A stretch of 50,596 bases of DNA from Selenomonadaceae bacterium (GTDB lineage Bacteria; Bacillota; Negativicutes; Selenomonadales; Selenomonadaceae). The stretch covers positions 1 through 50,596 of the forward strand of contig JAFZMV010000011.1 of the NCBI GenBank assembly GCA_017553205.1, read 5' to 3'. The stretch's first letter is position 1. Each line of letters opens with the position of its first letter. The notes under the pieces are model-generated. The model had not been told where the DNA came from, searched no databases, and saw only the letters and a list, made by a program, of their open reading frames with translations. The position numbers and the translations under genes were made by a program. This document shows positions 34,864 through 40,773 of the stretch, piece by piece.

Positions 34864-34930
34864 AGTTAGGAATTAGGAGTGTGGAATGAGGAATTTAATT
34901 CCTAACTCCTAATTCATCATTCCACATTAG
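34864..34930. repeat. Heptamer array, glgC-glgD gap
   Basis: Nine in-phase 7-mers plus four bases: AGTTAGG, AATTAGG, AGTGTGG, AATGAGG, AATTTAA, then the inverted set TTCCTAA, CTCCTAA, TTCATCA, TTCCACA. GAATTAGGAGT-type arms fold back on ACTCCTAATTC. The array fills most of the 89-base gap and stops just before the glgD ribosome site. Confidence 0.85.
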
Positions 34931-34947
34931 AAAAGGGGTGCTTTGCA

Positions 34948-36060
34948 TTGAAAACAGTAGTGGGGATTGTAAATCTTCAAGAAAGCAATGAATTACTCAG
35001 AGAGTTGGCGGCGACTCGTGCGGTTGAGGCTCTGCCTTTCGCGGGACGTTATCGTGTTGTCGATTTCTCTCTTTCAAATATGATTAACTCCGGTATTAAC
35101 AGCGTCGGTTTAATGCTTCCTGATTATTCCCGTGCAGTACTTGACCACATTCGCAGCGGTAAAGACTGGGATTTGGCACGCCGCCGCGACGGTTTAACAT
35201 ATCTTCCTGCCGCTCTTCCGGGAACTGATGCCCGCAAAGGCGATTTGAAAGATATTTATGCAAACTTGGATTTTGCTGAACTCAGCGATAAAAAATATGT
35301 TCTCTTCGTCAATGCAAGTTATGTTTATAACATCGACTTCAAAGAAGTTCTCGACTTCCATAAAAAGAGCGAAGCTGATATTACAGTTATATACAAAACT
35401 GTTGACGAGGATAAAGAAGGTCAAAAAACTGTTACCATTGAAACCAGCACTAACGGAATTGTAACAGACCTTGCAGAATCCAAAGGAGCTAAAAAAGGTT
35501 CTAAAGTTGTAATGAGTGCATATCTTATGCCCGTTCCGACTTTCGCTTATATTGTTCGTTCTACTTATGAACGCGGCGGACAAGATTTCTTGCTTGACGG
35601 AATTATCCGCCATGCAGGTGAACATAAGATTTCTGCTTTTGAACATAAAGGATATGTTGCAAGAATCAATTCAACTGCGGGATATTACAAAGCAAATCGC
35701 GACTGCCTGACTCCTGAAATTTGGGAAGAACTTTTCATGAACAAAGAACGCCCGATTTATACAAAAGTCAAAGATGAAGTTCCTGTTCAGTATAAAGACA
35801 CTGCAGAAGTCAAAAATTCTCTCATTGCCAACGGCTGTGTTGTTCGCGGCAGAGTTGAAAACAGTATTCTTTTCAGAGGCGTTAAAGTCGGAAAAGGTGC
35901 AGTCATTAAAGATTGTATTTTAATGCAACGTTGCGACGTTGAAGACGGAGCAAGAGTAGAAAACGTTATCTGCGACAAAAATGTTATCATTACAAAGAAC
36001 CGCTGGCTTAAAGGTTCAGAAAATTTCCCCTACATCGTTACCAAAAATGCAAGAATTTAA
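34948..36060 (+). CDS. glgD: Glucose-1-phosphate adenylyltransferase, GlgD subunit
   Basis: 370-residue paralogue of GlgC that acts as the second, regulatory subunit of ADP-glucose pyrophosphorylase in Firmicutes. It keeps the fold (PFAGRYRVVDFSLSNMINSGI, the beta-helix tail RGVKVGKGAVIKDCILMQRCDVEDGA). The nucleotide loop GGQGSRL of GlgC is replaced by NLQESNELLREL, so catalysis is lost or weak, as usual for GlgD. The TTG start at 34948 follows AAGGGGTG. It lies 89 bases after glgC, across a heptamer array. Confidence 0.94.
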   Translation: MKTVVGIVNLQESNELLRELAATRAVEALPFAGRYRVVDFSLSNMINSGINSVGLMLPDYSRAVLDHIRSGKDWDLARRRDGLTYLPAALPGTDARKGDLKDIYANLDFAELSDKKYVLFVNASYVYNIDFKEVLDFHKKSEADITVIYKTVDEDKEGQKTVTIETSTNGIVTDLAESKGAKKGSKVVMSAYLMPVPTFAYIVRSTYERGGQDFLLDGIIRHAGEHKISAFEHKGYVARINSTAGYYKANRDCLTPEIWEELFMNKERPIYTKVKDEVPVQYKDTAEVKNSLIANGCVVRGRVENSILFRGVKVGKGAVIKDCILMQRCDVEDGARVENVICDKNVIITKNRWLKGSENFPYIVTKNARI

Positions 36061-36061
36061 A

Positions 36062-36144
36062 AATTAGGGGCTAAAAAATATAGGGGGTTAGGGGTTCGGC
36101 GTTTAAAATTTTATTATGCCCTTCTCTTAACCCTTAAATTACGC
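36062..36144. repeat. Weak heptamer array, glgD-glgP gap
   Basis: 7-mers in phase from 36062: AATTAGG, GGCTAAA, AAATATA, GGGGGTT, AGGGGTT, CGGCGTT. A less regular inverted half has CCCTT and TTAACCC. It is more decayed than its relatives, but with the same GG-rich-then-CC-rich layout. Confidence 0.55.
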
Positions 36145-36166
36145 TTATACTAAAGGAGGAATTTGC

Positions 36167-38632: not shown

Positions 38633-38644
38633 ACTGACAATATC

Positions 38645-38721
38645 TAATGCGTAATGCGTAATTAAAAATTTTCTGACATTCTTATCATTTTTAATTATAC
38701 ATTCTTAATTTTTAATTATTC
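38645..38721. repeat. Heptamer array, glgP-glgB gap
   Basis: Eleven uninterrupted 7-mers in one phase: TAATGCG, TAATGCG, TAATTAA, AAATTTT, CTGACAT, TCTTATC, ATTTTTA, ATTATAC, ATTCTTA, ATTTTTA, ATTATTC. The first half folds on the second (TAATTAAAAAT with ATTTTTAATTA). It shares the double AATGCGT phrase with the array at 3441. Confidence 0.85.
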
Positions 38722-38739
38722 AAAAGGAGGCGTGATCTT

Positions 38740-40698
38740 GTGAAGACTTCCAATCTTGGTGAGTATGATCTCTATTTGTTCCATCAGGGAACCAATTTTC
38801 ATGCATATGAAATGCTCGGTGCACACTTTGTTGAACAGGACGGCAAAAAAGGCGTTCGTTTCGCAGTATGGGCGAAAAATGCAAAATCCGTAAGCGTTGT
38901 CGGGGATTTCAATAACTGGGACACCCGCGTGAACAGAATGAGCCGTTTGGACGACGGAGAAACTTGGTGCATTTTTATCGAAGGTCTTAAACAGGGAGCT
39001 ACTTACAAATATGCGATTGAACCTCAGTGGGGCGGTCCGCACATTTTGAAAGCTGATCCTTACGGTTTTTATTGCGAAAGAAAACCTGCTACCGCGTCCC
39101 GTCTTTACGACATGACAAAATATGTCTGGGGCGACGGCGAATATATGGAAGCGAAAGCCAAAGAAGCCTCTTACACCAGACCGATGGTCATTTATGAAGT
39201 CCATGCAGGTTCTTGGCAGAGAAAAGCACAGGGCAACAGCGACGTTGACGATGTTTATTTAAGCTATCGCGATCTTGCTGAAAGACTTGTCCCGTATGTC
39301 AAGAAAATGAATTACACGCATATTGAGTTCATGCCTTTGACTGAACACCCGTTTGACGGTTCTTGGGGCTATCAGACAACCTGTTATTATGCAGTTACAA
39401 GCCGTTACGGCGAACCTGACGACTTCAGATATTTTGTAGAAACTGCTCATAAAAACGGTATCGGAATTATCATGGACTGGGTACCGGGTCATTTCTGCAA
39501 AGACAATCAGGGACTCCGCGAATTTGACGGAACTAACCTTTATGAATCCGATAACTGGCAACTTGCAGAAAATAAGGGCTGGGGTACAATAAACTTCGAC
39601 TACGGCAGAACGGAAGTTCACAGTTTCTTGATTTCTAATGCTCTCTTCTGGTTTGAGGAATATCATATTGACGGCTTGAGAATTGACGGCGTTGCCAATA
39701 TGCTGTATCTCAACTTTGGACGCGAAGAAGGCGAATGGACTCCGAATAAATACGGCGACACAGGCAACCTTGAGGCTATCGACCTTATCAAGAAATTGAA
39801 TGAAACTGTATTCCAGTATCACCCCAACGCTTTAATGATGGCTGAAGAGTCCACCGACTGGCCTTTAATTTCTAAACCTGTTTACATGGGCGGTCTTGGT
39901 TTCAACTACAAATGGAACATGGGCTGGATGAATGACATGTTGAAATATGAAGGTCTTGATCCGATTTATCGCAAGTGGAATCATGACAAAGTTACTTTCA
40001 GTTTCATGTATGCATTCAGCGAAAACTTTATCCTGCCTTTGAGTCATGATGAAGTTGTTCACGGCAAAGCATCGCTTATTGAAAAAATGGGCTGGGGCGA
40101 TTATTGGCAGCAGTTTGCAAGTCTTCGCGGTTTCTATGGTTACTGGATGGCTCATCCCGGCAAAAAACTTTTGTTCATGGGCAGCGAGTACGGACAGTTT
40201 ATCGAATGGAATGAAAATGACAGCTTAGACTGGCATTTGGTTGAACAGTACGAGAAACATACTCAAATGCAGAAATATTCGCAAGCTCTTAATAAATTCT
40301 ACTGCGACAATCCCGCCTTCTGGCAGGTAGACTTTGACTGGAACGGTTTCCAGTGGATTGACTGCAACGACAACGAAAACAGTATTGTTTCGTTTATTCG
40401 TAAAGCAAAAAATCCTGAAGATTATATTATTGCTGTCTGCAACTTCACTCCTGAAGTAAGAGTAGGCTACAGAATCGGAGTTCCCGACAAAGGTTCTTAT
40501 TATGAAGTCTTTAACTCTGATCTTGAAGAGTTCGGAGGCAGTGGAGTTAAAAACGAAGGCGATCTTCTTGCTCAAGATGTTGCTTGGCATAATCGCGAGC
40601 AGTCTATTGAAATTAGAGTTCCGCCGCTTGCTACAATTTACTTGAAACACAAAAAAGACAGCGAGAAAGTTGCGGAGAAAGCAGACACTAAGAAATAA
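38740..40698 (+). CDS. glgB: 1,4-alpha-glucan branching enzyme
   Basis: Introduces alpha-1,6 branches into glycogen (GH13). 652 residues: an N-terminal CBM48 (KGVRFAVWAKNAKSVSVVGDFNNWD), then the catalytic barrel with EFMPLTEHPFDGSWGYQTTCYYA, the nucleophile Asp in DGLRIDGVANMLYL, the acid Glu in MMAEESTDWP, and LPLSHDEVVHGKASL, and a C-terminal beta domain. The start is GTG 38740 with AAAGGAGG nine bases upstream. The acidic, Lys-rich tail (KKDSEKVAEKADTKK) is an extension. It is fourth in the operon. Confidence 0.96.
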   Translation: MKTSNLGEYDLYLFHQGTNFHAYEMLGAHFVEQDGKKGVRFAVWAKNAKSVSVVGDFNNWDTRVNRMSRLDDGETWCIFIEGLKQGATYKYAIEPQWGGPHILKADPYGFYCERKPATASRLYDMTKYVWGDGEYMEAKAKEASYTRPMVIYEVHAGSWQRKAQGNSDVDDVYLSYRDLAERLVPYVKKMNYTHIEFMPLTEHPFDGSWGYQTTCYYAVTSRYGEPDDFRYFVETAHKNGIGIIMDWVPGHFCKDNQGLREFDGTNLYESDNWQLAENKGWGTINFDYGRTEVHSFLISNALFWFEEYHIDGLRIDGVANMLYLNFGREEGEWTPNKYGDTGNLEAIDLIKKLNETVFQYHPNALMMAEESTDWPLISKPVYMGGLGFNYKWNMGWMNDMLKYEGLDPIYRKWNHDKVTFSFMYAFSENFILPLSHDEVVHGKASLIEKMGWGDYWQQFASLRGFYGYWMAHPGKKLLFMGSEYGQFIEWNENDSLDWHLVEQYEKHTQMQKYSQALNKFYCDNPAFWQVDFDWNGFQWIDCNDNENSIVSFIRKAKNPEDYIIAVCNFTPEVRVGYRIGVPDKGSYYEVFNSDLEEFGGSGVKNEGDLLAQDVAWHNREQSIEIRVPPLATIYLKHKKDSEKVAEKADTKK

Positions 40699-40773
40699 TT
40701 AGTAGTTAGTCATTAGTCGTTAGAAATTAGAGGCTGGTGACTACAAAACACAAAAATTAAAAATTACAGACGG
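40697..40773. repeat. Heptamer array, glgB-glgA gap
   Basis: Eleven 7-mers in phase: AATTAGT, AGTTAGT, CATTAGT, CGTTAGA, AATTAGA, GGCTGGT, GACTACA, AAACACA, AAAATTA, AAAATTA, CAGACGG. The first five fit NNTTAGN. It overlaps the last base pair of the glgB stop and ends at the glgA ribosome site. Here the second half is not a clean inverted copy. Confidence 0.85.

Follow-up and report, generated by a model that had tools for sequence, protein, structure and literature searches.

Tandem arrays of degenerate 7-nt units (heptamers) were found between the genes of the glycogen operon glgCDPBA of a Selenomonadaceae bacterium, on a 50,596-nt contig (C89; this whole stretch is hereafter called the window) of a 2.39-Mb draft genome which is 92% complete. 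Comparison with related genomes showed that such arrays are dispersed intercistronic repeats which are restricted to one genus (rumen Selenomonadaceae, Quinella), are present or absent at orthologous gaps from species to species, and undergo turnover of their units. Within the genome of the window they are crowded in some operons, without being peculiar to the glycogen genes.

The ribosomal-protein gaps of the window's own genome were compared with those of 26 further genomes of the genus (27 in total) and of 14 genomes outside it; gaps containing N (in the ribosomal-protein set), gaps longer than 350-500 nt and the L15-adk pair were left out of these counts and of the arm counts below. Arrays were present in 75 of 745 gaps in the genus, at 0 to 10 per genome, and in 0 of 401 gaps outside it, while the own-genome region encoding EF-G, EF-Tu, S10, L4, L2, L22 and L16 carried them in 10 of 33 orthology-defined gaps. 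In the relatives they were located between the stop codon and the next ribosome site; the spacer between the S11 and S4 genes, for example, is 6-11 nt long in most species and 73-84 nt in the three with arrays, and across seven inspected gaps the medians were 8-25 nt for empty and 45-145 nt for array-bearing spacers. A search for three copies of GGRATKD plus GG, which counts overlapping places, matched 40 of 66 genus genomes, that of the window included (up to 172 places), as against 3 of 397 genomes elsewhere in a sample of the phylum (1-2 hits each); the reversed control also matched several genus genomes (for example 18 times in G024, 12 in G025 and G051).

The same pattern of presence and absence was observed when the four glg gaps were compared in relatives, a check proposed in a preliminary description of the window. 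With the window included, an array was found in the glgC-glgD gap at 17 of 44 loci, in glgD-glgP at 9 of 42, in glgP-glgB at 12 of 35 and in glgB-glgA at 5 of 30, and among the 30 operons in which all four gaps could be read 11 had no array and 2 had all four. Units were replaced between species: orthologous arrays had a similarity of 0.52 (n=112), compared to 0.54 for different gaps of one genome (n=122) and 0.49 for unrelated pairs, the eight most similar orthologous pairs reaching 0.71-0.81. Unit identity was 0.646 within genomes, 0.580 between genomes and 0.542 in shuffled sequence, a within/between contrast which is conservative in that some genomes are represented twice under separate labels, once by a glg locus (L070-L118) and once by a ribosomal-protein locus (L121-L146); L098-L100 are also near copies of one another in some gaps.

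Within the window's own genome, arrays were scored as a lag-7 match of 60% over 35 nt in two samples. The first, which is biased, consisted of 20 stretches on 12 contigs with known element matches together with the window (441 kb, 415 open reading frames (ORFs), gaps of 60-700 nt), while the systematic sample consisted of 31 stretches (308 kb) from every fifth contig number minus the contigs already sampled. The systematic sample contained arrays in 8 of 121 gaps (50 shuffles: mean 1.16, maximum 3) and, at a 66% match, in 3 of 121 gaps (0 in any of the 50 shuffles), so that a period-7 scan of the intergenic regions, also proposed earlier and run here on samples, gave a signal above that of shuffled sequence; at other periods, lag 14 gave 7 gaps and the remaining lags 1-5. 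The initial portion of this sample, taken by itself, had arrays in 3 of 69 gaps, with 2 in one shuffle. The first sample contained arrays in 39 of 205 gaps; among equal numbers of coding pieces and of shuffled gaps there were 0 and 2, respectively (lag 14 raised, at 18; remaining lags 0-7), and at a 66% match there were 24 hits in 32 kb of intergenic and 2 in 400 kb of coding DNA. Because the first sample sat on match-bearing contigs, the genome-wide rate was taken to be near 7%, not 19%.

When gaps were grouped by the direction of their flanking genes, the first sample had arrays in 35 of 144 (co-directional), 3 of 25 (convergent) and 1 of 36 (divergent) (co-directional versus divergent, P =0.002; co-directional versus convergent, P =0.2); the systematic sample, with 7 of 80, 0 of 19 and 1 of 22, respectively, is alone too small to tell. 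The earlier suggestion of an element which prefers intercistronic sites fits these mostly co-directional gaps and the variation in presence between species. Arrays were crowded in a 40-kb ribosomal-protein stretch (C113:20001-60000), where 13 of 24 gaps carried one (P =2e-7 compared to the systematic sample), and in the glg operon (3 of 4 gaps compared to 7 of 80 co-directional systematic gaps; P =0.005, post hoc, for an operon picked for its arrays).

In the window itself, whole-gap lag-7 autocorrelation was scored against 500 dinucleotide shuffles. Values of 0.54 (z 5.6) for glgC-glgD, 0.46 (z 3.6) for glgP-glgB and 0.55 (z 5.3) for glgB-glgA were each reached by 0 of 500 shuffles, while the signal in glgD-glgP was weak (0.35, z 2.0; reached by 20 of 500). 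The preliminary description had reported period 7 in all four gaps and expected it to exceed that of shuffled sequence of the same composition, which thus holds firmly for three gaps and weakly for glgD-glgP; its statement that an array lies in every gap of the operon is nearly right, as three of the four gaps pass the local array criterion and glgD-glgP, at 0.57, falls below the threshold of 0.64. Variation of the unit from gap to gap was confirmed, as was, by reading, the finishing of the arrays near the next ribosome site. The glg gaps are not alone: among 23 window gaps tested (of at least 40 nt), five were at 0 of 500 shuffles, namely the three glg gaps and two of the 19 non-glg gaps (3430-3499 and 21880-21994), which are equally strong. 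The glgC-glgD element had at least 58 own-genome matches at E<=0.001, itself and reverse-strand matches included (40 of 91 candidates scored), and the glgP-glgB element at least 12, itself included (40 of 55 candidates scored), one of them the element at 3430-3499; the glgB-glgA element had 2 matches, itself included, and the search with the glgD-glgP element returned itself alone. Genes were called as simple ORFs (Table 1), and the profile families agree with the glgC, glgD, glgP, glgB and glgA identities given earlier. Relatives of GlgD at 76-91% identity are metagenome-assembled genomes of Selenomonadaceae/Selenomonadales, many of them from ruminants and 3 labelled Quinella.

Table 1. Heptamer elements, glg genes and rRNA gene located in the window.
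Feature	Position	Strand	Description
glgC-glgD heptamer element	34859-34935	+	5' arm AATTAGG/AGTGTGG/AATGAGG; 3' arm reverse complement (CCTAACT, CCTAATT)
glgD-glgP degenerate element	36061-36148	+	5' arm GGGGTTA-type, 3' arm CCCTTAA-type; weak period
glgP-glgB element	38633-38722	+	5' arm AATGCGT, 3' arm AAAAATT-type; units differ between arms
glgB-glgA element	40699-40768	+	5' arm TTAGTAG/TTAGTCA, 3' arm AAAAATT-type; units differ between arms
Like element in convergent gap	3430-3499	.	AATGCGT in both arms; lag-7 z 3.8 (0/500); fold z -6.69
Like element	21880-21994	-	GGAGATAGT/AGGAAATAG-type arms by reading; lag-7 z 4.0 (0/500); fold z -4.36
glgC	33722-34858	+	TIGR02091 / NF003670
glgD	34948-36060	+	TIGR02092
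glgP	36167-38632	+	TIGR02093
glgB	38740-40698	+	TIGR01515
glgA	40786-42234	+	TIGR02095 / NF001898
5S rRNA gene	50430-50547	-	Rfam

The anatomy of the arrays was examined in 479 gaps of the genus, in which arms of period 7 were found 173 times, of period 8 24 times and of other periods 26 times (4, 4 and 10 times, respectively, in shuffles), four being the commonest copy number per arm (44 of 131). Both halves of the gap were periodic in 87 of 105 array gaps, and since both arms are usually G-rich on the inward-pointing strand (77 of the 87) the pair forms an imperfect inverted repeat. Up to 24 of the 87 pairs had arms differing in unit or period (consensus units being compared at a cut-off of 0.6; some five of the 24 appear to be artefacts of the splitting), most clearly by eye at L133, L136, L141 and L143, and 15 short gaps held an array of a single arm (12 G-rich, 3 C-rich). 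Where found, in gaps of less than 140 nt, the G-rich arm started at a median of 1 nt past the stop codon (95th percentile 14), and the upstream stop codon was TAG in 14 of 75 gaps with an array and in 10 of 396 without one (P =1e-6; a single gap accounts for 6 of the 14, and the species are not independent). Inspected by eye for target duplications and terminal repeats of the type seen in miniature inverted-repeat transposable elements (MITEs), the array ends blend into the stop codon and spacer. The main unit of the own genome is GGA(A/G)T(G/T)(A/T/G) (GGARTKD; 131 units tabulated, positions 1-5 being partly fixed by the search pattern and position 6 free), and G occupies position 6 in 69% of the units of 5' arms and 21% of those of 3' arms. 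A stop codon occurred within 0.77 of the units (0.65 expected) and 0.59 of their reverse complements (0.30 expected; 113 units), an excess attributed to favoured TTAG/CTAA-like words; there was no evidence of function as a stop-codon insulator.

Further observations concern individual genomes. The load of own-type units ranged from 0 to more than 160 overlapping places within the genus (g1, G060, G014 and G021 versus G048, G006 and G003), and some genomes with zero own-type units carry other units. One long tandem array (G056:C37:33018-33145) consists mostly of perfect GGAATTG copies, unlike the arms elsewhere, which are short and degenerate. In the own genome, the last residues and stop codon of L29 (rpmC; L021/L022, C113) appear, by reading, to be array-derived (...KIRNVE and stop), whereas the protein finishes with ...IRQ and stop in 14 of 26 relatives within the genus; the called start of adk in the same region, MQNQFQTPNSKLLIL..., also looks array-derived.

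The account which we favour, with a probability of roughly 0.6, is that the arrays are hypervariable repeats whose units change by slippage-like events, which are copied between gaps and which are filtered by selection. Units would be gained or lost in 7-8-nt steps through slippage-like DNA synthesis, and existing arrays would be copied from gap to gap inside a genome, giving each genome a mild unit dialect; purifying selection would clear insertions from genes and promoters, and because of this removal the arrays would persist mainly in the spacers between stop codon and Shine-Dalgarno (SD) sequence inside operons. Several results weigh against this account. Neutral copying leaves the crowding unexplained (13 of 24 ribosomal-protein and 3 of 4 glg gaps compared to 8 of 121), and slippage plus random copying explains neither the sense bias, 20 of 24 own-genome elements aligning better in sense than in antisense (P =0.0015), nor the difference between arms, position 6 having a G majority in 13 of the 17 5' arms and 1 of the 21 3' arms of the own genome that could be decided (P =5e-6). 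Unequal arms are not accounted for by slippage, copying and selection alone, and arm polarity was less clear-cut in a cruder test of position, in which 92% of 73 G-rich arms lay in the 5' half but only 51% of 77 C-rich arms in the 3' half. Mutational events were not observed, and MutS and SbcD, the loss of which could have accounted for instability, both score over the cut-off in the own genome. Among 99 genomes searched, MutS did so in 88 and SbcD in 89, and a match of some strength was present in 99 for MutS and in 94 for SbcD; a missing mismatch-repair system or hairpin nuclease was accordingly rejected as a cause.

The preliminary description had also taken at least two of the arrays to be inverted so that the mRNA folds back, with a possible role in mRNA stability or gene dosage. 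Folding relative to shuffles was strong in the glgC-glgD (z -4.06) and glgB-glgA (z -3.88) gaps and weak in glgD-glgP (z -1.22) and glgP-glgB (z -1.43), so that the folding stands for two of the four gaps. Neither of the known classes of element named as alternatives was found in these gaps: an Rfam search at the gathering score matched only the 5S rRNA gene in the window, which removed a known RNA family as a candidate, and none of the five terminator-like sites (shuffles, 5.1) in a scan of 34800-40800 for Rho-independent terminators (GC-rich hairpin and U-tract) fell within a glg gap. Over the genus, array gaps folded far better than shuffles preserving the composition of each half, the mean z being -3.73 for 105 array gaps (81% of them below -2) and -0.98 for 103 other gaps (24%), and in 76% of 66 comparisons a true arm pair exceeded pairs swapped within the genome in stability (mean -4.9 kcal). 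These results, and the crowding in ribosomal-protein and glg operons, are consistent with a function of the intercistronic hairpins in determining mRNA processing, mRNA stability or gene-to-gene dosage, above all where expression is high. Such a function is nevertheless judged decidedly unlikely. Among the arm mismatches of 77 aligned elements there were 68 G-U pairs to 93 A-C mismatches (P =0.058), a direction opposite to that of RNA selection, and in the absence of a preference for G-U pairs there is no support for selection on RNA structure; the conserved glgD-glgP hairpin described below does show G-U and two-sided changes, which is a rough contrast from a different test. Arrays are also often absent at orthologous gaps, and two of the four glg folds are weak. 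The operons without arrays, the turnover of units and the lack of a G-U excess leave the proposed effect on glg mRNA stability or dosage unsupported. The array hairpins are most readily seen as a consequence of the inverted arrangement of the DNA arms, the main doubt being that arrays crowd in busy operons; any effects on mRNA are probably incidental, with no demonstrated role in glycogen metabolism. Given their crowding in ribosomal-protein and glg operons, the arrays may still be linked with expression.

The glgD-glgP gap of the relatives contains a conserved hairpin, GGCGGATTTTTAC...GTAAAAATTCGCC, followed by TTTCTGTGATT, in 38 of 42 genus gaps (window counted), for example at L085:8139-8198 and L094:2086-2149, and 24 of the 42 carry TGATAAAAT-like sequence. 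The pattern is missing from the window (36061-36166), L070 and L076. Two-sided changes were seen at 5 of 16 pairs, along with many G-U (30 of 39 copies; nine near copies or odd ones omitted), and there was no Rfam match in the single locus tried. The hairpin is possibly a regulatory RNA or an attenuator before glgP. At L072:8156-8294 and L075:8178-8310 heptamer arrays sit within its loop with the stem intact, as clean insertions.

Those loop insertions, the presence or absence of arrays at orthologous gaps, the many own-genome matches of the glgC-glgD element and the orientation bias would also suit a MITE-like mobile element with a transposase, that is, an inverted heptamer element inserted en bloc in fixed orientation into stop-to-SD gaps and diversifying later. 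We consider this unlikely, as arms with different units and arrays of one arm argue against it and the candidate enzymes do not track array load. Of 49 genus genomes searched, 6 had a Y1_Tnp (PF01797) match, which in one case scored below the cut-off, and the own draft genome had 0 matches, and a RAYT/Y1 transposase was rejected as mobiliser; RVT_1 was found in 16 of the 49, the own genome included (4 hits), and in none of the array-rich drafts G014, G015 and G023 (85-91% complete), and reverse transcriptase is accordingly an improbable general source. Repetitive extragenic palindromic (REP) elements and REPINs, mobilised with REP-associated tyrosine transposases (RAYTs), resemble the arrays as dispersed extragenic inverted repeats in the excerpts consulted (PMC2817692, PMC3116915, PMC3733652). 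The absence of a RAYT-type domain from the own draft sets the arrays apart. REP and REPIN elements are not known to have tandem heptad arms.

The polarity and the inequality of the arms would be expected if the 3' ends of a DNA break were each lengthened by copying a short template again and again, as at telomeres, and then joined, which would give inward G-rich arms that need not match. The excess of G-rich arms among one-arm arrays and the TAG stop codons upstream, with the dependence noted above, are consistent with such addition, as is the unit concordance of the two arms, which hardly exceeds that of arms re-paired within the genome (0.69 versus 0.64). Arms of the same element were, however, somewhat more alike than swapped ones (DNA-alignment swap, 68% positive of 66, P =0.0002), the position of C-rich arms was not clean, and no enzyme, template RNA or new insertion was seen; the explanation is held to be very unlikely. 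A fuller form, just as improbable, is that a process of the genus dedicated to DNA ends, with a telomere-like activity, would lengthen 3' ends by G-rich repeats of 7-8 nt at stop-to-SD sites in busy operons; the two ends would be independent and the template would vary, and the joining of the ends would leave the inward arms as scars. If true, such a process could also underlie the convergent heptamers of Xanthomonas and Nostoc.

Slippage-like change and copying, the favoured account, concerns repeats which have parallels in other bacteria. The short tandemly repeated repetitive (STRR) sequences of cyanobacteria are heptamer-type repeats, and the likening of the window's arrays to them in the preliminary description was apt in kind. 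Rehm et al. (2015; PMC4692102), in the excerpts consulted, report intergenic GGGNATC heptamers in Xanthomonas and similar GGGGA(C/T)T units in Nostoc PCC7120. Arrays of four units are the most frequent there, two Xanthomonas genomes have 70 and 75 pairs in convergent orientation, and the repeats are located near stop codons on the coding strand, are depleted between divergent genes and have a function given as unknown. The Quinella arrays resemble these in their tandem 7-nt units dispersed in intergenic regions, in the inward direction of their arms (the cruder position test being less clean) and in their rarity between divergent genes in the first own-genome sample. The main unit, GGARTKD, is a different one, and they are therefore taken to be of the same kind and of another family; their units are also richer in A/T, with many per genome (GGARTKD, AATGCGT, TTAGNNN). 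Compared with those excerpts, the many unit types per genome, the octamers, the mismatched arms and the polymorphic invasion of ribosomal-protein operons are new.

Degenerate heptads also form both sides of the P6b stem of the Nostoc trnL intron (TDNGATT / NNTGAGT), where, according to excerpts of PMC4476775, the motif class is replaced between lineages; those heptads lie within one structured intron in a different phylum, whereas the Quinella arrays occupy dispersed intercistronic sites. The TAACTGA direct repeats of Beggiatoaceae, as excerpted from PMC4679880, are likewise intergenic heptamers with stop codons in all frames and a scattered distribution which extends inside ribosomal-protein operons; they differ in consisting of one unit, in direct repeats mostly upstream of start codons, with one indirect repeat reported. 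Why heptamers are abundant among the longer simple repeats of many bacteria is an open question in the excerpts of PMC4679880 and PMC4692102. No earlier report of such arrays in Quinella or Selenomonadaceae was found among the top-ranked results of a literature search, and in the portion of the Quinella genome paper (PMC9585023) covered by a term search 'intergenic' occurred 0 times and 'repeat' once, in an irrelevant context.

The genus offers dozens of species in which arrays have been gained, lost or switched in unit within a highly conserved operon, so that orthologous sites without an array serve as a direct reference for the origin, loss and orientation of arrays. If the arms are truly independent and inward-polar, the mechanism is constrained, and the crowding in ribosomal-protein and glycogen operons needs explanation. 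Such hairpins should not be taken as regulators of the flanking genes; the Quinella arrays look like a fast-changing relative of the Xanthomonas and Nostoc heptamers, not a proven control system of the glycogen genes.

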